IMG/VR virus record: IMGVR_UViG_3300025896_000183
Location: 1 to 24,209 of that record
DNA from: a virus
Reading direction: 5' to 3' (one strand)
Length of the DNA: 24,209 nucleotides
Of the stretch, positions 2,982-15,573 are shown piece by piece (the first letter of the stretch is position 1; every line of letters starts with the position of its first letter). Made by a program: the position numbers and the translations under genes. Below the pieces are notes generated by a model. The model worked only from the letters and a program-made list of their open reading frames with translations, was not told where the DNA came from and did no database searches.

Positions 2982-3010
2982 ATTATACCACACTTGGATT
3001 GATTTGTCAA
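2982..3010 (-). promoter_or_regulatory. Consensus promoter of the packaging operon
   Basis: On the minus strand: -35 TTGACA (3010-3005), 17-bp spacer, -10 TATAAT (2987-2982) with an upstream TGG, i.e. a perfect consensus plus extended -10. ACAAC lies 7 bp before the -35 (3022-3018), similar to the rightward promoters. The -10 box is followed by ACCAACATG, which puts +1 at about the terS ATG. Confidence 0.88.
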
Positions 3011-3315
3011 TAGTAATGTTGTAATTAGTACATACCTTTCATAAAAATATGTTGTGTTATATCTGTTGGGGAAGTCAATACCTTTTAAAAATATTGGGTT
3101 TGTGTATTTGTGCTGAACATATATGTCTCATCAGGGCAATATAGCGTCAAGTATGTTGTAGCCCCCCGTACCCCACGTATGCTATACTATATTAAAACAT
3201 AATCATAATAAAAAACAATAGCACAATAATAACAGCATACAAAACATTGTGCTTGTGGTAATGTCAATAATATGTTGTGATAAGCAATAGCAGTATAAGC
3301 CGTAGCATAAGGGGT

Positions 3316-3343
3316 TTGACAAACACAAGTATTATGGTATAAT
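3316..3343 (+). promoter_or_regulatory. Orphan rightward promoter in control region
   Basis: TTGACA (3316-3321), 16-bp spacer, TGG then TATAAT (3338-3343). No good ORF follows at once. The transcript would begin near 3350 and can fold TATGGT with ACCATA around 3355-3376. It may make a small RNA or a long leader for the membrane-protein gene at 3618. Confidence 0.7.
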
Positions 3344-3471
3344 TAACTTATTGATATGGTCGCCTATTAAACCATAATTGTATAAACCCGTCAAATTGGC
3401 ATCCATACCTGCATTGTCACCTCTATAAATCAGTGTTGTAAATATTACATGCAAAATATAGCACAAAGCTA

Positions 3472-3500
3472 TTGCATTATGGTGTGTGATGGTGTATTAT
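3472..3500 (+). promoter_or_regulatory. Weak candidate promoter for the 3618 gene
   Basis: TTGCAT (3472-3477), 17 bp, TATTAT (3495-3500), with a TG just before the -10. The spacing is right but the -35 is poor. It would give a leader of about 110 nt for the gene at 3618. Confidence 0.35.
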
Positions 3501-3617
3501 AGAATCATAACAGTTGATAAAGATTAAATCACTGTAACGGCTATCCGATAATATAAATAGGGTAATGACAATTACAATATAAAAACATAAAAACTATAAA
3601 AAAGAAAGCCAAAAACA

Positions 3618-3761
3618 ATGTTGCTAGAAATGCTAATATATGTTACAATAGCTAGTGTGTTTGTGAAGCTATACGCTAAACTATCACTAGTTGACACTAT
3701 AAAATTAGGTGTTACTGTATATGTATTATGGCTACTATGTGTTATTGCTATGTGCCTATAG
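3618..3761 (+). CDS. Possible small membrane protein, 47 aa
   Basis: ATG at 3618 opens a 47-codon frame ending in TAG. The peptide has two hydrophobic stretches, MLIYVTIASVFV (5-16) and LGVTVYVLWLLCVIAMCL (30-47), separated by KLYAKLSLVDTIK. It could therefore be a two-span membrane protein of holin or superinfection-exclusion size. The ribosome binding site is weak (AAAGAAAG about 9 nt upstream). AT-rich DNA easily produces hydrophobic frames, and a minus-strand frame overlaps it, so reality is uncertain. It is the only credible protein gene in the 1.27-kb control region. Confidence 0.4.
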   Translation: MLLEMLIYVTIASVFVKLYAKLSLVDTIKLGVTVYVLWLLCVIAMCL

Positions 3762-3840
3762 TATATAGTATACATGAGTATAACCAAAAACTAGCAGGCA
3801 GTGGCAGGCTTGACAATCTGTTATATATTATAAAATGATA

Positions 3841-3855
3841 TTGACGGACTGTCAA
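3841..3855. repeat. Inverted repeat TTGAC-N5-GTCAA
   Basis: TTGACGGACTGTCAA: 5-bp arms around a 5-nt centre, in the control region. The arms read as -35-like TTGAC on each strand. It is similar in content to the palindrome at 4206-4220. Possible operator. Confidence 0.4.
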
Positions 3856-3994
3856 TTATGTTGTAATAAATACAGGATGTGCTTATGGTATGATTATTAT
3901 AGTATATATTTGATGTATTGTCTACTATGTGATATGACATAACTAGCAGGATTCGGGCGTTTTATTATAACATAAATATTATAAATTACAAGAC

Positions 3995-4024
3995 TTGACA
4001 CGGTGTCGCTCGGCGTGGTATAAT
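3995..4024 (+). promoter_or_regulatory. Rightward promoter in control region
   Basis: TTGACA (3995-4000), 18-bp spacer, extended -10 TGGTATAAT (TATAAT 4019-4024). GACACGGTGTC (3997-4007), a near-palindrome, overlaps the -35. The transcript would run through the 17-bp palindrome at 4045-4061 towards the gene at 4285. Confidence 0.65.
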
Positions 4025-4044
4025 GGAAGCAAAAGCCCAAAATA

Positions 4045-4061
4045 GTTGTCAATTTTACAAC
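4045..4061. promoter_or_regulatory. 17-bp palindromic operator candidate, GTTGT-N7-ACAAC (copy 1)
   Basis: GTTGTCAATTTTACAAC, with perfect 5-bp arms, ends 9 bp before the -35 box at 4071. The same 17-bp layout recurs before the promoters at 5195 (4 of 5 in the left arm), 7164 and 13803. At 4647 only the right half (TTTTACAAC) is kept. Confidence 0.7.
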
Positions 4062-4070
4062 AAAAAACTA

Positions 4071-4099
4071 TTGACTTATGCGGTTCTATCCTGTAGTAT
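4071..4099 (+). promoter_or_regulatory. Rightward promoter with operator motif
   Basis: TTGACT (4071-4076), 17 bp, TAGTAT (4094-4099) preceded by TG. The -10 is weaker than in sister promoters. It is preceded by ACAACAAAAAACTA, shared almost exactly with the promoter at 4647. Confidence 0.5.
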
Positions 4100-4149
4100 A
4101 AGAGTATAGCCAAGCGGTTATGAACATTGACAACCAGACAGACATGCAA

Positions 4150-4180
4150 CGCTAGAATATAATTATATAATTGTCTAGCG
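4150..4180. repeat. Palindrome with perfect 7-bp arms around an AT-rich core
   Basis: CGCTAGA (4150-4156) pairs with TCTAGCG (4174-4180). The 17-nt core contains the self-complementary ATATAATTATAT. It lies between the promoters at 4071 and 4215. It could act as an operator, an attenuator hairpin for upstream transcripts, or an origin element. No T-run follows. Confidence 0.55.
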
Positions 4181-4205
4181 GATACGATAAAATAAATTGC
4201 TAAAA

Positions 4206-4243
4206 TGTCAAGGGTTGACAATTAAATAACCGTTTGCTATACT
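4206..4243 (+). promoter_or_regulatory. Promoter of the 4285 gene with palindrome over its -35
   Basis: TTGACA (4215-4220), 17 bp, extended -10 TGCTATACT (TATACT 4238-4243). The -35 is the right arm of the perfect inverted repeat TGTCAAGGGTTGACA (4206-4220), so a protein bound there would block RNA polymerase. The leader begins AGAGAGTAAACAAC (4245-4258), repeated after the promoter at 4647. Confidence 0.82.
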
Positions 4244-4284
4244 AAGAGAGTAAACAACAGTAATAAGTAAAGGATTATAACAAT

Positions 4285-4623
4285 ATGCGTGTAACAAACT
4301 TGAAAAGCCCACAAAGTGGTGCTAAGGTAGCTAATCAATATAATATAGAAGTGAATGGAGTTGACTATTTTCAGAGTTATGATACAGTTATAGCACGATA
4401 TAAGCCGTATTACTTAGAGGTAACGGAAGACTATAACTATAGCAATACCACAAGTAAGTATTTTCGTCAATGGCTTGAACAGTGGGGATTCAACCGTGGA
4501 GAGGTTGACAACTTGAAGGGATTATTGAAGAATGGTACTGTTGGGGTAGAGTTTTACTGGATACTTGACAATGGTAATAAAATTGTGGTATACTATGCAG
4601 AGAAGGGGGCATTCAGTCTATAG
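4285..4623 (+). CDS. Hypothetical protein, 112 aa
   Basis: First well-supported rightward gene. AAAGGA lies about 10 nt before the ATG and the promoter at 4215 lies just upstream. The product is rich in Tyr and Asn and begins MRVTNLKSPQSGAKVANQY. It has predicted beta strands (VANQYNIEVNGVDYFQSY, YYLEVTEDY, GVEFYWILDNGNKIVVYY) and a central WLEQWGFNRGEVDN helix. The KSPQSGAKVANQYNI start, promising to keep a new sequence in context, looks like families of small early proteins in phages and plasmids, but I cannot name one. No membrane segment or catalytic motif is seen. It ends just before the promoter at 4647. Confidence 0.8.
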   Translation: MRVTNLKSPQSGAKVANQYNIEVNGVDYFQSYDTVIARYKPYYLEVTEDYNYSNTTSKYFRQWLEQWGFNRGEVDNLKGLLKNGTVGVEFYWILDNGNKIVVYYAEKGAFSL

Positions 4624-4646
4624 TACAATTTTACAACAAAAACCTG

Positions 4647-4675
4647 TTGACAATACGGTTGGCAGGTGATACACT
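4647..4675 (+). promoter_or_regulatory. Promoter of the SprT-like gene
   Basis: TTGACA (4647-4652), 17 bp, extended -10 TGATACACT (TACACT 4670-4675). ACAAC (4633-4637) ends 9 bp before the -35. The leader GAGAGAGTAAACAAC (4676-4690) repeats the leader after the promoter at 4215. Confidence 0.82.
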
Positions 4676-4710
4676 GAGAGAGTAAACAACTAAACAAGGA
4701 TAATAGCGAT

Positions 4711-6819: not shown

Positions 6820-7061
6820 GTCAGAGAGAATCAATCTATAAAGGTGTACTAGCATTTAAGCTAGAGAACACAAAATACGTGATACGGTACATTAAAAGTA
6901 AAGATGAGTTACTAGCAGCAGCACGAGCAGCTGGCAAGAACGGCATTGAGCAATGGGCGTTTGAATATGCTAGACAACATAACGATGAGTTTGGCAATAG
7001 ATTAAGCCTAGAGTTGTATGATGTGTTCTGGGAAAAGGTTTGGTATGGCATACGCAACTAA
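6816..7061 (+). CDS. Hypothetical protein, 81 aa
   Basis: Starts in an ATGA overlap, with GAGGAG about 6 nt upstream. The product has a strand GVLAFKLENTKYVIRYI (10-26), then helices KDELLAAARAAGKNGIEQW and EYARQHNDEFG, and an aromatic C-terminus LYDVFWEKVWYGIRN. Soluble, mixed alpha/beta. No family recognised. It overlaps the small membrane-protein gene by 17 nt. Confidence 0.78.
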   Translation: MSQRESIYKGVLAFKLENTKYVIRYIKSKDELLAAARAAGKNGIEQWAFEYARQHNDEFGNRLSLELYDVFWEKVWYGIRN

Positions 7062-7158
7062 GCCACCAGAAAATAATACCCACATTTTAATTTTGTTCGC
7101 AGGATTAATAATGATTTTATGGGTAATATATGTAAGGTTGTATATTCTACAACAATAA
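7045..7158 (+). CDS. Single-span small membrane protein, 37 aa
   Basis: ATG at 7045 lies inside the end of the 81-aa gene, with AAAAGG about 7 nt upstream. The peptide MAYATKPPENNTHILILF is followed by AGLIMILWVIYVRLYILQQ: a polar N-terminus and one transmembrane helix of about 20 residues (14-33) with an Arg near its end. It is likely an inner-membrane miniprotein. Its 3' end overlaps the palindrome at 7137-7153, so coding and regulatory sequence coincide. Small hydrophobic phage proteins of this kind include lysis or exclusion factors, but nothing specific is seen. Confidence 0.65.
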   Translation: MAYATKPPENNTHILILFAGLIMILWVIYVRLYILQQ

Positions 7159-7192
7159 ATCTATTGACTTTTTGAACGATGTTTGATATAAT
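7137..7192 (+). promoter_or_regulatory. Strong promoter plus 17-bp palindrome upstream of the large RNA
   Basis: GTTGTATATTCTACAAC (7137-7153, 6-bp arms) ends 10 bp before TTGACT (7164-7169). After a 17-bp spacer comes extended -10 TGATATAAT (TATAAT 7187-7192). The spacing from palindrome to -35 is the same as at 13776-13803, and CTATTGACTTTT plus GTTTGATATAATAC recur at 10913 and 13803. Confidence 0.85.
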
Positions 7193-7198
7193 ACCAAC

Positions 7199-7640
7199 AT
7201 GTCACAAGTGCCTAGATTGCTAAAGCAATTATGGACAAAAACGACATAGACGAAGCAAACATTGTGCAAACGAGTGAGTAGCCCATAAGGTGAAGTTGCA
7301 TTGTGACAAATAACATATAAGCGTGGTGTTCAGCATCACCACGATAGTAAAAAATGGTTCGAGCGTAATTTTTCAATCAAGGTTTGTTCTGTAGGGCTTG
7401 AGCACCTTGTCCCCGATACTCCAAGGAGTTACGAGATACGCAAAAATAGTACAGTACCCTCTATAGGGAAGTGAAATAACTAATCAGAAATGTAACAGAC
7501 TTACGAGCGAAGTTGCAACGGTGGTTAGGTAGACAAGGACTGTATCTTATATGTTCAACACCTTAGTGGCTAACTTCTAATAGCCCGTCCGTGGTAATAT
7601 CGGGGAAGAAGAAGCCCCCGAAGTAACAAAAGATAGGGGA
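7199..7640 (+). ncRNA. Candidate large structured non-coding RNA, about 440 nt
   Basis: No credible protein frame exists here, yet a near-consensus promoter fires into it. The RNA can form nested helices. Helix 1: TGTCACAA (7200-7207) with TTGTGACA (7301-7308), continued by TGC/GCA across one bulge. Helix 2: AACATATAAG (7312-7321) with CTTATATGTT (7546-7555), 10 perfect pairs bridging about 220 nt. Helix 3 directly abuts it: CGTGGTG/CACCACG (7322-7343). Helix 4 is nested in helix 2: CCTTGTC (7405-7411) with GACAAGG (7532-7538). Local hairpins include ATTGC/GCAAT (7216-7229), ACTC/GAGT (7418-7429), CCCT/AGGG (7457-7468) and CGGGG/CCCCG (7601-7620). Phages are known to carry large ornate RNAs (GOLLD, ROOL), but I cannot show membership. 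The 3' end is uncertain; no U-run terminator is visible, so it may be cut from a longer mRNA. Confidence 0.72.
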
Positions 7641-7645
7641 AAGCG

Positions 7646-7843
7646 GTGGAAGAATGGAAATCACCACGTAAAATCGAAGAAGAAGTACGACAGTACAAGT
7701 TAGAACGTTTTGAAAGCTACATGCAGATGGCTGATGATGGTAAACTACCACGAGCCTTAGCAATCGCAGCATTCAGAGAGGAATTAGAGCATGTCGAAGA
7801 AGCAAACTCTGTATTACGAGGAGCAGCAGACACAAGGCAATAA
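7646..7843 (+). CDS. Hypothetical helical protein, 65 aa (GTG start)
   Basis: GTG at 7646 follows AGGGGAAAGC with good spacing; an ATG nearby is out of frame. The sequence MEEWKSPRKIEEEVRQYKLE and onward is charged and almost wholly helical, with QMADDGKLPRALAIAAFREELE in its middle. No family recognised. It is the first protein gene after the structured RNA and probably shares its transcript. The next gene overlaps its end by 53 nt in another frame, unusually long for this cluster. Confidence 0.7.
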   Translation: MEEWKSPRKIEEEVRQYKLERFESYMQMADDGKLPRALAIAAFREELEHVEEANSVLRGAADTRQ

Positions 7844-8341: not shown

Positions 8342-8772
8342 TGGCAGAGCAACAAATGGTATCAATGAACGTAGACCCTGAAATAGTTCAGGCTATAATC
8401 AGAAAAAATATAGAAACATCACTATTATCGGCAATGGGCGACGAAAGCGAAAAGGGTGCTATCCTTGACGCTATTGTAATGTCAGCTATAAAATGTAAAG
8501 TAAATAGTGATGGTAAAATATCAAGCTATAATAGCGACAATAAGTATGAATACCTTGATTGGAAGATTCAGCAAGTTATACGTGGTGCAACGGCTACGGC
8601 ACTTAATGAATATGTAGAAAGTAAAAGCAATACATTTAAGAAAGCTATAAAAAAGGCAGTTGAAGAGAACGCTGGCGAGATTGCTAATAATTTAGTAAAG
8701 GCATTTGCAGAATCAGCAGCAAATAGCTGGAGATTCAAAGTAAATCTTGAAGTAGATACTAAGGACGACTAA
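8341..8772 (+). CDS. Hypothetical protein, 143 aa
   Basis: Coupled to both neighbours: TAATG at each end. The product is helical and rich in Ala, Asn and Glu. It begins MAEQQMVSMNVDPEIVQAII and has DESEKGAILDAIVMSAIK (34-51) and a long helix NTFKKAIKKAVEENAGEIAN before a strand-like WRFKVNLEVD end. No catalytic motif. Its tight coupling to the Pif1-like helicase suggests a replication or recombination accessory role; this is inference only. Confidence 0.78.
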   Translation: MAEQQMVSMNVDPEIVQAIIRKNIETSLLSAMGDESEKGAILDAIVMSAIKCKVNSDGKISSYNSDNKYEYLDWKIQQVIRGATATALNEYVESKSNTFKKAIKKAVEENAGEIANNLVKAFAESAANSWRFKVNLEVDTKDD

Positions 8773-10004
8773 TGATACAAGCCCGAGCAATAGAAATAAT
8801 GCTATCAGGGGCTAACGTATTGTTGACAGGTCAGGCAGGTAGTGGTAAGACATGGACAATCAATGAGTTTGTTAAGCAAGCGAAACGCAAGCACAAGAAA
8901 GTTGTTGTCACAGCCACAACTGGCTTGGCTAGTTCTCACATTGGCGGTCAGACAATACATAGTTGGTCTGGGATTGGTCTTGATGACCATTTACATGATG
9001 ACTATATATACACAATGAGTGAAACTAGGAAGAAAGATATTCGTAAGACTGATGTTCTGATAATTGATGAAATCAGTATGATGCACGATTACAACCTGGA
9101 TATGGTTGATGAAGCCATGAGGATTATCCGTGAGAATGATAGTCCGTTTGGGGGGATTCAGGTTATCCTAGTTGGAGACTTTTTCCAGTTACCACCAGTT
9201 AAACAAGGTGGTTCGGGTAGGTTTGTAGTATTTAGCAAAGTCTGGAAACGTATGGACATCAAAGTATGTTACCTAGAAGAACAGTTCAGGCAAGATGATG
9301 CCGATTTACAGGGAATCTTGAACGCAATGCGTGATGGAACGTTGACACAACGCCATCTCGACCTATTGAAAAGTCGCATTGGACACAAGGCTACCGATAA
9401 TGTTACTAGGTTATATACTCTAAACATAGATGTAGAGAATATCAACAACCAGAAGCTGGATGAATTGACGGGAGATACGCATTATTATTTGCGTACAAGT
9501 CGTGGTCAATCATGGAATGATTTGCAGATATTACAAAAGAATGTTCTAGCACCAGAAATACTCAGACTGAAGCAGGATGCAGTAGTAATGGCAGTTAAGA
9601 ACGATGCAGAAGGAAGGTTTTTTAATGGCAGTATTGGAATTGTTACTGGGTTTTCTCGTGACGGTTTTCCTATTGTGGATTTTGGCGATTTGTACGCCTA
9701 CACGGTCTACCCCGAAGAATGGGAATACAAGCGTGGCGACCGAACTACGGCAGCAATTACGCAAATACCTATCAGGTTGGCATACGCCATAACAGTTCAC
9801 AAGTCACAGGGAATGACACTAGACACAGCAGAACTAGACCTATCAAAGGCATTTGTAGAGGGTATGGGATATGTTGGATTGAGTCGAGTAAGAAGCTTGA
9901 AAACATTGTACCTAAAGGGTATAAACCAGAGGGCATTGCAAGTTAGTGCTGTAGCACGAGCAATAGATACCAAGTTTAAGGAAAGAAGTAAAGAGAATGA
10001 ATAG
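8772..10004 (+). CDS. Pif1/RecD-like superfamily 1B DNA helicase
   Basis: 410 aa. Helicase motifs appear in order: Walker A GQAGSGKT (20-27), motif Ia TATTGLAS (48-55), Walker B IIDE (97-100), motif III VGDFFQLPP (134-142), motif IV EEQFRQ (169-174). The C-terminal RecA-like domain has TVHKSQGMTLD (341-351) and YVGLSRVRS (367-375), carrying the arginine finger. This order and the GQTIHSWSGIG segment match Pif1-type 5'-to-3' helicases; T4 Dda and RecD2 are relatives. Such enzymes unwind DNA at forks or start replication. The start overlaps the preceding stop (TAATG), and the stop overlaps the following small basic gene. It lies in the replication part of the phage, before the recombination module. 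Confidence 0.92.
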   Translation: MIQARAIEIMLSGANVLLTGQAGSGKTWTINEFVKQAKRKHKKVVVTATTGLASSHIGGQTIHSWSGIGLDDHLHDDYIYTMSETRKKDIRKTDVLIIDEISMMHDYNLDMVDEAMRIIRENDSPFGGIQVILVGDFFQLPPVKQGGSGRFVVFSKVWKRMDIKVCYLEEQFRQDDADLQGILNAMRDGTLTQRHLDLLKSRIGHKATDNVTRLYTLNIDVENINNQKLDELTGDTHYYLRTSRGQSWNDLQILQKNVLAPEILRLKQDAVVMAVKNDAEGRFFNGSIGIVTGFSRDGFPIVDFGDLYAYTVYPEEWEYKRGDRTTAAITQIPIRLAYAITVHKSQGMTLDTAELDLSKAFVEGMGYVGLSRVRSLKTLYLKGINQRALQVSAVARAIDTKFKERSKENE

Positions 10005-10870: not shown

Positions 10871-10941
10871 GTTGCTATTGTCAATAATACAACACATTTT
10901 TGGCAAAAACTATTGACTTTTAGCCTCAAGTTTGATATAAT
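10871..10941 (+). promoter_or_regulatory. Promoter of the recombination module
   Basis: TTGACT (10913-10918), 17 bp, extended -10 TGATATAAT (TATAAT 10936-10941). The core matches the promoters at 7164 and 13803 (CTATTGACTTTT, GTTTGATATAATAC). ACAAC (10889-10893) and GTTG (10871-10874) lie upstream but about one helical turn further away than at the sister promoters. Confidence 0.82.
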
Positions 10942-13775: not shown

Positions 13776-13831
13776 GTTGTATAAAATACAACAATTTTAC
13801 TATTGACTTTTCGTGTCAAGTTTGATATAAT
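13776..13831 (+). promoter_or_regulatory. Promoter of the lysis cassette with 17-bp palindrome
   Basis: GTTGTATAAAATACAAC (13776-13792, perfect 7-bp arms) ends 10 bp before TTGACT (13803-13808). Then come 17 bp and TGATATAAT (TATAAT 13826-13831). The spacing and core equal those at 7137-7192. TTGAC/GTCAA also forms an inverted repeat over the -35 and spacer. Confidence 0.87.
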
Positions 13832-13852
13832 ACAATGAAAGGAGAAATAAGA

Positions 13853-14011: not shown

Positions 14012-14607
14012 ATTCGTACAATCGTAAAATGGTCAAAGACAGCAGCTATCCTAGCTACTGCGATTGTCCTTCTAGTTGCTACTGTGTTTGTGTCAAAGGC
14101 TCACGCCGATGCAATGACTCAACTGAGTCAGTCACAAGTAGAGACTAGTAAAATCGAATCGAATCTTCAGGTCGTTAAGACCCAGAAAGAACAACTGGCA
14201 ACAGAAGTTCAGCAAAAAGATGCGAGGATACAACAGCTCGAAGAGGAAAACTCTGAGTTAAAAGAATAAAGCAAGCAAAGCTAGAAGCAGCACGACAGCA
14301 GACTAAAAATGCAACAATTACGCAAGTTGCCGTCAGTGGTAACTGCTCGTCTTGGCTTGCTGAAGCTGGTGTATCTGACATTCAGAATGCCATGTGGCTA
14401 ATCAATAAGGAATCGGGATGCAACCCAAATGCAATCAACAGCTCGTCTGGTGCTTGTGGTGTTGCACAGGAACTACCTTGTGGAAAGTCTGGATGCAGTT
14501 TAGGAGATGGTGTTTGCCAAATTAAGTGGATGCAGTCCTATGTCAATAATCGCTATGGCGGTTGGGCAGGAGCAGTGCAGTGGCACATTAACCACGGTTG
14601 GTATTAA
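14012..14607 (+). CDS. Secreted coiled-coil transglycosylase (lysin), needs -1 frameshift
   Basis: Two adjacent frames join into one sensible 198-aa protein. Part 1 (14012-14269): IRTIVKWSKTAAILATAIVL and VATVFVSKAHA form a signal peptide with an AHA cleavage site. A coiled coil follows (SQSQVETSKIESNLQVVKTQ to QQLEEENSELK). Part 2, in the -1 frame, continues RIKQAKLEAARQQTKNA and leads to a transglycosylase domain: AMWLINKESGCNPNAINSSS with the catalytic-type Glu, GACGVAQ, and RYGGWAGAVQWHINHGWY. Such domains cut peptidoglycan glycan strands. The shift would occur at TTA AAA G (14258-14264), just before TAA (14267-14269). A GAGGA lies 12 nt upstream of the A-run, like the SD-stimulated dnaX signal. 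No ATG/GTG/TTG precedes the signal peptide: AAAGGA (14001-14006) points to ATT 14012. Sequencing error or pseudogene are the alternatives. Confidence 0.7.
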
Positions 14608-14660
14608 ACATCGGGGTGGACACAGGTTGTCCTCATGGTCGTCCCTTAAGCGTTCCTTCA

Positions 14661-14717
14661 GTCACCGAGCCGAATTGTACAAAGGGGCAACATCTGGTTC
14701 GAGTCCAGACGGTGGCA
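14661..14717 (+). ncRNA. tRNA-like element A, 57 nt, no anticodon arm
   Basis: Acceptor GTCACCG (14661-14667) pairs fully with CGGTGGC (14710-14716; one G-U). The T arm is canonical: TCTGG-TTCGAGT-CCAGA (14693-14709). A D-arm-like piece (GCC ... GGC, 14669-14689) is present. Only a few bases separate it from the T stem, so the anticodon arm is missing. No CCA is encoded (A14717 then TTTT). It could not decode, but could still be a substrate of RNase P or RNase Z. Confidence 0.6.
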
Positions 14718-14806
14718 TTTTATTCCCCTCGAGGGAAGGTGATGGGCTAGAGGTCACGGTTGAAAACCCTTAATTCGGACTTCTAAATACTAGTTGCCCA
14801 TTCACA

Positions 14807-14855
14807 ACACCTTCTTTTTATCCTTTTCTCGGCATAAGTAGTAAAAGGTGTTCCA
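14807..14855 (+). ncRNA. CCA-ended stem-loop 1 (49 nt)
   Basis: ACACCTT (14807-14813) pairs with AAGGTGT (14845-14851), plus one further A-T outside. Then come T and CCA (14853-14855). Seven pairs, an unpaired base and CCA mimic an acceptor end. The 31-nt interior shows no clear arms. It ends 2 nt before tRNA-like element B. Confidence 0.45.
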
Positions 14856-14857
14856 TA

Positions 14858-14957
14858 AGCTAGGGAGTTTAGGTCAGAACTCTCCTGCTGAGTAGCCTTG
14901 AGTAATTAACTTGGTGAAAGTGTGGGGGCGGTATTGGTTCAAATCCAATCCTAGTCA
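14858..14957 (+). ncRNA. tRNA-like element B, 100 nt, abnormal middle
   Basis: Acceptor AGCTAGG (14858-14864) pairs with CCTAGTC (14950-14956) except position 1 (A-C); position 2 is G-U. The T arm is perfect: ATTGG-TTCAAAT-CCAAT (14933-14949). A D-arm with GG in its loop is plausible (GTTTAGGTCAGAAC, 14867-14880). I find no 5-bp/7-nt anticodon arm in the 52 nt between, which is far longer than normal. No CCA encoded. Confidence 0.5.
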
Positions 14958-14964
14958 GGTTTAA

Positions 14965-15009
14965 GGCATTGTACCTACGGTGGTCTAATTAACCCAAACA
15001 ATGCCTCCA
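14965..15009 (+). ncRNA. CCA-ended stem-loop 2 (45 nt)
   Basis: GGCATTG (14965-14971) pairs with CAATGCC (14999-15005), followed by T and CCA (15007-15009); the next base pair out is also T-A compatible inside (T14972-A14998). The interior can form GGT-CTAATTA-ACC, a short hairpin with a 7-nt loop. It ends 1 nt before tRNA-Tyr. It resembles a D- and T-armless mini-tRNA, but could equally be a plain hairpin. Confidence 0.45.
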
Positions 15010-15010
15010 T

Positions 15011-15094
15011 GTTCAGATATGCAAGTGGCTAAAGCAGGCGGTCTGTAAAACCGTCCCTTCGGGTTCGTAGGTTCGACTCCTACTCTGTTCACCA
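15011..15094 (+). tRNA. tRNA-Tyr (GTA), encoded CCA, two acceptor mismatches
   Basis: The D arm (TGC/GCA), anticodon arm GCGGT-CTGTAAA-ACCGT (15038-15054, anticodon GTA at 15045-15047), long variable arm CCC-TTC-GGG, T arm GTAGG-TTCGACT-CCTAC (15067-15083) and CCA (15092-15094) are all canonical for tRNA-Tyr. The acceptor GTTCAGA/TCTGTTC pairs at positions 1 and 4-7 but has U-U at 2-71 and 3-70. It is otherwise the only ordinary tRNA in the array. Confidence 0.85.
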
Positions 15095-15095
15095 A

Positions 15096-15119
15096 AGAGT
15101 TGTTGCCATAGACAGCTCT
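15096..15119 (+). repeat. 8-bp stem-loop between tRNA-Tyr and element D
   Basis: AGAGTTGT (15096-15103) pairs with ACAGCTCT (15112-15119), one G-U, with an 8-nt loop. CCTTTCT follows, giving a weak terminator-like or spacer hairpin 1 nt after the tRNA-Tyr CCA. Confidence 0.5.
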
Positions 15120-15126
15120 CCTTTCT

Positions 15127-15208
15127 GGGGTAATTACAGTTTGACCAGCCGTAAATCCGCATGTCGGAAACCGTTGGGACGTGGGTGCAACTCCCACTTA
15201 CTCCACCA
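15127..15208 (+). ncRNA. tRNA-like element D, 82 nt, encoded CCA
   Basis: Acceptor GGGGTAA (15127-15133) pairs fully with TTACTCC (15198-15204; one G-U). The T arm GTGGG-TGCAACT-CCCAC (15181-15197), a discriminator A and CCA (15206-15208) are present. The 47-nt middle lacks a standard anticodon arm; the best folds are TTAC/GTAA with a 13-nt loop and TCCG/CGGA with a 5-nt loop. I cannot assign an anticodon. Confidence 0.55.
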
Positions 15209-15211
15209 TAT

Positions 15212-15351
15212 AGGTATATAGCTCAGTCTGGTAGAGCTGGGGGCTATGCCCTCGTAAAGCAAATCATCCAATAGGTTGATAACAGGAGGGTGGTTAGCAG
15301 TTGTTATCTTATCAATAACAAGCGTCTGTTCAAATCGGACTATACCTGCCA
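15212..15351 (+). tRNA. tRNA-like element E with a 70-nt insertion, encoded CCA
   Basis: Acceptor AGGTATA/TATACCT (15212-15218, 15341-15347) is perfect, the D arm GCTC-AGTCTGGTA-GAGC is canonical, the T arm GTCTG-TTCAAAT-CGGAC (15324-15340) is good, and G plus CCA end it. An arm GGGGG/CCCTC (15239-15253) lies where the anticodon arm should be, but its loop (CTATG) is too short or, read as 7 nt, lacks U33. About 70 nt then precede the T stem. They include TTGATAA/TTATCAA (7 bp). This is either an enlarged variable arm or an unspliced insert; the anticodon is unclear. Confidence 0.55.
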
Positions 15352-15573
15352 TACACATACCAATCAGGGCGTAAGTCAGCCAAACGAGATTTCCGTAGTA
15401 GCTGTTGATTACAGTTCCGTAGAAAAGCCAGTAATGGAGAGTAAGAGATGAGGTGTGCGAACCTGTTCCGTTTTACATCCACCTGATTTAATCACAGGTT
15501 CATGGACTGGGAATCCTAGTCGAACTCGTAGCGAATTGGTTGGTAGGTGCATGGTAATAAGTTAAGGAATGAG
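15352..15573 (+). ncRNA. Structured segment after the tRNA array, possible pseudoknot
   Basis: GAACCTGT (15459-15466) pairs with ACAGGTTC (15494-15501), 8 bp. Inside that loop CCTGATT (15482-15488) matches AATCAGG (15362-15368), 7 bp, giving a pseudoknot topology. ACTGGG/CCTAGT (15506-15520) forms another hairpin, and TTCCGTAG occurs twice (near 15400 and 15414). No protein frame fits. It may be the 3' domain of the array RNA or the leader of the 15574 operon. Confidence 0.5.

Follow-up and report, generated by a model that had tools for sequence, protein, structure and literature searches.

A Likely New Class of Structured Phage RNA with a Double-Pseudoknot Core

The Locus and Its Promoter

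What does a phage transcribe from a few hundred bases that lie behind a strong promoter, precede replication genes and encode no evident protein? This question is raised by positions 7199–7645 (plus strand) of a 24,209-base virus record, the whole of which is called the window below. Few large structured phage RNA classes are known, and the RNA assigned here on sequence, absence of reading frames, promoter and covariation would most likely add one whose core is compact and testable and which occurs in natural variants.

The locus lies between small upstream genes, which end at 7061 and 7158, and a gene beginning at 7646. The absence of a protein frame claimed in a preliminary description of this DNA is borne out, as 7199–7645 contains no plus-strand open reading frame of at least 40 aa. 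The near-consensus promoter that it had reported is also found: TTGACT-17-TGnTATAAT (7164–7192, plus strand) scores 11/12 and has a TG ahead of the -10 (extended -10), and its +1 is the 5′ end of the structured RNA, 7199. Reading by eye finds an equivalent promoter at the same position in the relatives described below. Upstream of the promoter lies the palindrome GTTGTA-TATTC-TACAAC (7137–7153, no strand assigned); similar elements precede other promoters of the same phage family, and this palindrome is a possible operator.

No terminator separates the RNA from the replication genes in the lineage of the window, so the transcript likely runs on into the downstream operon. The first gene of this operon (7646–7843, plus strand) encodes a 65-aa protein, MEEWKSPRKIEEE..., to which no function is assigned; a Dda/PIF1-like helicase (8772–10004, plus strand) belongs to the run of replication and recombination genes that lies downstream.

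Relatives of the Locus

Single-sequence folding of the RNA strand gives a z-score of -2.24, with 2 of 100 shuffles folding equally well. Such a score is weak evidence by itself, and homologues were therefore gathered. A search with the helicase (8772–10004) led to 13 contigs (L002–L014), among which L008 begins downstream of the locus. Wherever the locus is in view, an RNA lies behind an extended -10 promoter (13/13 contigs, window included). Four of these RNAs, found at the same place in the window, L002, L003 and L009, form type A; the last three show 77–87% identity to that of the window. Four other contigs (L004–L007) carry a different RNA at the locus, type B. Types C (L010, L012 and L013) and D (L011 and L014) share the core of type A, while sequence similarity is nearly gone.

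Scans with two neighbouring genes detected no further phage of this lineage, and scans of cellular-genome contigs with the helicase and the 65-aa gene detected no cellular or prophage relative. BLAST of type A, type D and L073 RNAs (L073 belongs to a second lineage, see below) against annotated phage records returned no real match. The Manatee Spring relative MW202577 is without a gap of this size ahead of its helicase, and inspection by eye found no similar RNA upstream of the genes related to the 65-aa gene that other phages carry (L026–L037). A scan with the pattern GGGAAGTGAAATAACTA gave two extra matches, in L018 and L019, both coding coincidences; with the pattern CCGTCATATCTAAAAATA, 6 of 10 matches were unrelated.

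Structure of the Type A RNA

The four complementarities named in the preliminary description all exist in the sequence, but only two of them survive comparison of the type A RNAs. Helices were ranked by a scan for pairings kept in all four type A sequences and showing double changes. At its top stands the 10-bp long-range helix H3 (7312–7321 with 7546–7555, plus strand), with four double changes and 100% of cells paired, followed by the 7-bp hairpin stacked on it (7322–7328 with 7337–7343), which is kept in all four sequences with three doubly changed pairs. The two other proposed helices lack conservation and are incompatible with better ones. Seven of the eight pairs of 7200–7207 with 7301–7308 lie in alignment columns where the relatives have gaps, without any double change, and this helix competes with the 5′ hairpin P1 (7199–7247, plus strand; ATGTC at 7199–7203 with GACAT at 7243–7247), whose counterpart in L003 is ATGC/GCAT and whose loop holds an insert specific to the window. 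The helix 7405–7411 with 7532–7538 shows zero double changes, is broken in one relative and competes with the stem S1.

The preliminary description had missed the core, a stem-loop (S1) locked by two pseudoknots (PK1 and PK2), which provide the best evidence across lineages. The core domain (7363–7441, plus strand) is closed by GCGTA (7363–7367) and TACGC (7437–7441), with one double change. Inside it, S1 (7378–7409) pairs CAAGG (7378–7382) with CCTTG (7405–7409), and its inner part pairs GTTC (7386–7389) with GAGC (7400–7403). The sequence just 3′ of S1, TCCCCGATA (7410–7418), forms the 5′ strand of PK1 and pairs over 9 bp with TATCGGGGA (7598–7606). PK2, revealed by the same helix scan, joins GGGCTT in the S1 loop (7394–7399) to AAGCCC (7612–7617), with a double change in L009 and L002. 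A further hairpin, GGCT/AGCC (7568–7585, plus strand), lies between H3 and the 3′ strand of PK1 and shows one double change.

The composed type A structure, both pseudoknots included, comprises 53 pairs, 99.1% of them paired across the sequences and 10 doubly changed. Its covariation score is 0.245 versus 0.106 for shuffled alignments, and sliding the structure along the sequences drops pairing to about 40%.

Conservation of the Core across Types

Ten sequences share the core when L073 is included, four of them of type A. PK1 is invariant within type A (CCCCGATA/TATCGGGG) and changes on both strands between types: CCCTGATA/TATCAGGG in L013, CTCTGGAA/TTCCAGAG in L010 and CTCTGGA/TCCAGAG in L012 for type C, CTCTAGTA/TACTAGAG in L011 and CTCTGGTA/TACCAGAG in L014 for type D. 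Over the seven sequences of types A and C, five of the nine PK1 pairs are doubly changed and 95% are paired, with a score of 0.487 against 0.211 when shuffled. The PK1 complement within the last 120 nt of each type A, C or D sequence listed has a p value of 0.0004–0.008. Type D has its own H3, with seven pairs and five double changes; the adjoining hairpin covaries and PK2 shows a double change. Pairing of the S1 loop with a strand just 3′ of PK1 (PK2) is found in type A, in both type D contigs and, by reading, in L073; it is not clearly seen in L010, L012 and L013.

A covariance model of 46 positions (R1), covering S1 and the 5′ strand of PK1, was trained on types C and D only. Over the whole window its sole match is 7371–7420 (E=0.015), exactly the predicted place, and the RNA of the window keeps the same order of features, S1 being followed by the 5′ strand of PK1 and the 3′ strand lying near the 3′ end. 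The covariation in homologues on which the preliminary description had made its claim depend is thus found in types A, C and D. At the level of aligned sequences, covariation demonstrates H3, its hairpin and PK1; S1 and PK2 are supported. That the locus encodes a genuine structured RNA class can be held with near certainty.

Type B may be an RNA unrelated to types A, C and D or an extreme relative of them. R1 finds no match in L006 or L007, and the type B RNAs have long hairpins and a long-range helix of 6–8 bp (CGATGG/CCATCG). One of them, L007:6396–6755, takes the place of the type A RNA downstream of the same promoter. Another observation made by eye is a possible small GTG-started gene inside the RNA of L013 (6826–6945), between the core and the 3′ strand of PK1.

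A Second Phage Lineage

A motif scan led to L065 and L066, two contigs with an identical RNA. As L072 and L073 do not differ over 750 bases, the second lineage counts as one independent sequence. By our estimate, a collection of this size could contain a few chance occurrences of the motif pattern by itself, so the case for this lineage rests on added features. The stretch combines, in the right order, an S1 stem, a 9-bp closing stem, PK1 (CTCTGG/CCAGAG) and PK2 (CCCGCC/GGCGGG), together with an enclosing helix (ATTTACAA/TTGTAAAT), and its predicted fold contains the closing stem, S1 and the enclosing helix. R1 matches L072/L073 with E=3e-7; PK1 alone has p 0.08 in this sequence. Furthermore, the phage shares with the window an exonuclease and a DNA-polymerase exonuclease subunit (27% and 36% identity).

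Here the genes on either side of the RNA are on the minus strand, and a hairpin resembling a terminator follows it at a distance of about 170 nt. No convincing same-strand gene follows for about 4 kb, after which come plus-strand terminase genes. Judged from this arrangement of the sequence, the core of the second lineage is a unit of its own.

Comparison with Described RNA Families

The preliminary description had left the choice between a member of the GOLLD or ROOL families and a new class. Its proposal of a structured RNA stands through covariation and that of a new class is retained, while membership finds no support in Rfam. The check that it had suggested against GOLLD, ROOL, OLE and HEARO gave no match for the window RNA at the gathering threshold and only noise in the window region at E<=10; types B and C gave only noise at E<=5, and the L065/L066 stretches of the second lineage nothing credible. 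Since types A, B, C and the second lineage are all without an Rfam match, the RNA is, as far as its sequence tells, none of these four.

GOLLD has a conserved 3′ region and self-assembles into a homo-oligomeric cage, ROOL is often found near tRNA islands and, to our knowledge, neither has a settled function. Both are non-coding RNAs, large and structured, carried by phages and prophages and with no known partner, and ROOL has multiple pseudoknots (PMC12286853). The RNA of the window is likewise phage-borne, large and pseudoknotted. This likeness could make it a member or an extreme variant of such ornate RNAs, forming an RNA-only multimer, but we consider this very improbable: neither Rfam model gives a match, whether at the gathering threshold or with E<=10, no shared secondary-structure element was found, and it measures 300–450 nt versus 800 or more for many GOLLD RNAs. 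Besides being shorter than GOLLD, it differs by heading a replication operon and, from ROOL, by its distance of 7 kb from the tRNA cluster of the window (about 14.6–15.6 kb).

OLE and HEARO/omega RNAs are also large bacterial structured RNAs; no IscB- or TnpB-like gene is present among the window genes examined, and the window RNA is without Rfam match. Two other candidates were set aside. ARAGORN finds no tmRNA. The succession of a helix and a crossing helix resembles, by eye, the topology of a group I intron; the 5′ strand of PK1 is more than 120 nt from the 3′ strand of H3, core motifs are absent and Rfam gives no match. The locus is most likely the source of a new class of phage non-coding RNA, co-transcribed here, to judge from gene order, with replication genes.

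Exchange of RNA Alleles

The RNA and the genes that follow it have partly separate histories. L002 and L003 have helicases that are 99% identical and RNAs that are only 81.5% identical, whereas the RNAs of L002 and L009 share 96% identity. These mismatches between helicase and RNA identity indicate that the RNA moved as a unit. In the same way, L007 (type B) and L009 (type A) have helicases that are 95% identical, and their DNA alignment stops at the +1 of the promoter to resume at the next genes. Allele swaps therefore start exactly at +1, between phages whose adjacent helicases are 95% identical.

Nor is the RNA tied to one neighbour. Other genes than the 65-aa gene follow it in L010–L012 and L014, and in L002 the 5′ part of this gene (its first codons) is deleted while the RNA is intact.

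Possible Roles of the RNA

The RNA probably acts in trans. This role is favoured because the following gene changes, because alleles swap as a unit from +1 and because the second lineage has a free-standing core with a terminator-like hairpin. It should be emphasized that all 13 contigs of the main lineage have the RNA directly ahead of same-strand genes, which counts against a trans role and fits a role in cis too.

In the mechanism that we infer, the S1 loop (through PK2) and the 3′ flank of S1 (through PK1) would both pair with a distant 3′ segment, PK2, S1 and PK1 could form a single clamp by stacking, and H3 would enclose S1 and the 5′ strands of the pseudoknots. With its own strong promoter and no terminator before the replication genes, the locus would yield a transcript that is both a 5′ leader and the source of the RNA. 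This early, abundant, folded RNA may bind a component of the host or of a competing phage, such as a protein, RNA polymerase or the ribosome. The whole explanation, a new class of phage RNA with a double-pseudoknot clamp as core, its own promoter and an early, abundant product acting in trans, is the one we prefer, at a little less than an even chance.

The main rival is a leader acting in cis on transcription, in which the nascent RNA would bind its own RNA polymerase and promote terminator read-through in the long replication operon, a put-like or EAR-like processive antitermination element grown large. The put RNA of phage HK022 is about 65–75 nt long, with two stem-loops. It is an RNA of a phage early operon acting alone from the nascent transcript (PMC9378689) and offers a precedent. 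The RNA of the main lineage similarly has a promoter to itself and stands first in an early operon: it begins at the +1, precedes a same-strand gene run in 13/13 contigs and is not tied to one downstream gene. In L073, which lacks this placement, the terminator-like hairpin and the terminase genes some 4 kb on could also be read as targets of antitermination. However, the RNA, with 300–450 nt and two pseudoknots, is far larger than put, and the genes that come next in L073 run in the opposite direction, the RNA there standing apart from any co-directional operon. Furthermore, the window shows no excess of downstream terminator-like sites: one weak plus-strand site, and 10 on both strands versus 11 expected. 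This antitermination role is rather doubtful.

The exchanges described above may point to an RNA that is a fast-diversifying, swappable specificity determinant. Nearly identical phages would trade the double-pseudoknot alleles, and the apparently unrelated type B in the same slot, as cassettes, a behaviour expected of an RNA-based factor of superinfection immunity or counter-defence; we regard this as unlikely.

A translational, riboswitch-like leader is quite improbable. In such a device, the 3′ strand of PK1 would switch partners, from the distant pseudoknot to a local hairpin next to it and back, and thereby control access to the ribosome-binding site shortly downstream. The end of the RNA is indeed close to this site, the next start codon lying 28–50 nt away, and a competing local hairpin takes up the PK1 3′ strand in L009, L002, L013, L010 and L012 (shuffle p 0.007–0.04) and, more weakly, in L011 and L014. 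In the window and L003, however, the local hairpin is no better than in shuffles. The gene that would be controlled is not conserved, and is even truncated at its 5′ part in L002; L073 has no convincing following gene, and no ligand-like core is conserved across types. If the PK1 3′ strand paired with the bases immediately preceding it, the core might act as a switch, which we mention as a lead only. As for a replication-linked element, with the transcript as an origin pre-primer or the DNA itself forming functional hairpins, the locus does head replication and recombination genes, but the strong promoter fits an RNA role and a larger AT-rich noncoding region between divergent operons (about 3000–4280) is a better origin candidate, which leaves this last alternative hardly credible.

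Returning to the trans-acting RNA, alleles that are exchanged between close relatives could be swapped in one phage to reveal the target. More generally, such RNAs can be discovered from one unannotated contig by comparing relatives at the same locus.

Other Elements of the Window

Several promoters of the window share TACAAC, often as TTGTA..TACAAC, 5′ of the -35 (4049–4100, 4622–4690, 7137–7192, 10890–10941 and 13778–13832); this common sequence suggests a common regulator. The AT-rich noncoding stretch of about 1.3 kb at 3000–4280, from which the late and early gene runs diverge, contains many TTGACA/TACAACA elements and is a candidate origin or control region.

In the tRNA region, calling a tRNA-Thr (TGT) at 15212–15351 requires that its anticodon loop be permitted an intron of 57 nt. 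Around tRNA-Tyr, within 14600–15560, lie several other stretches that resemble tRNA halves or end in CCA and that the standard tRNA search misses.

A pairing of the leader with a nearby small RNA (AAGGAGTTA, AACGACA) was considered and discarded, being not above shuffles in most leaders. The minus strand (10816–10735) carries a gene for a small RNA of about 85 nt, with a perfect TTGACA-17-TGnTATAAT promoter and a strong terminator; it has a hairpin GTAGAG..CTCTAC and an open GCTTAACTCCTTTCTTT, which is anti-Shine-Dalgarno-like. The roughly 40-nt core of this RNA is unchanged in L002, L003 and L006–L009 and nearly unchanged in L010 and L011, though the adjoining helicase is only 66–91% identical in protein to that of the window, and this small RNA is possibly more conserved than anything else in the region.
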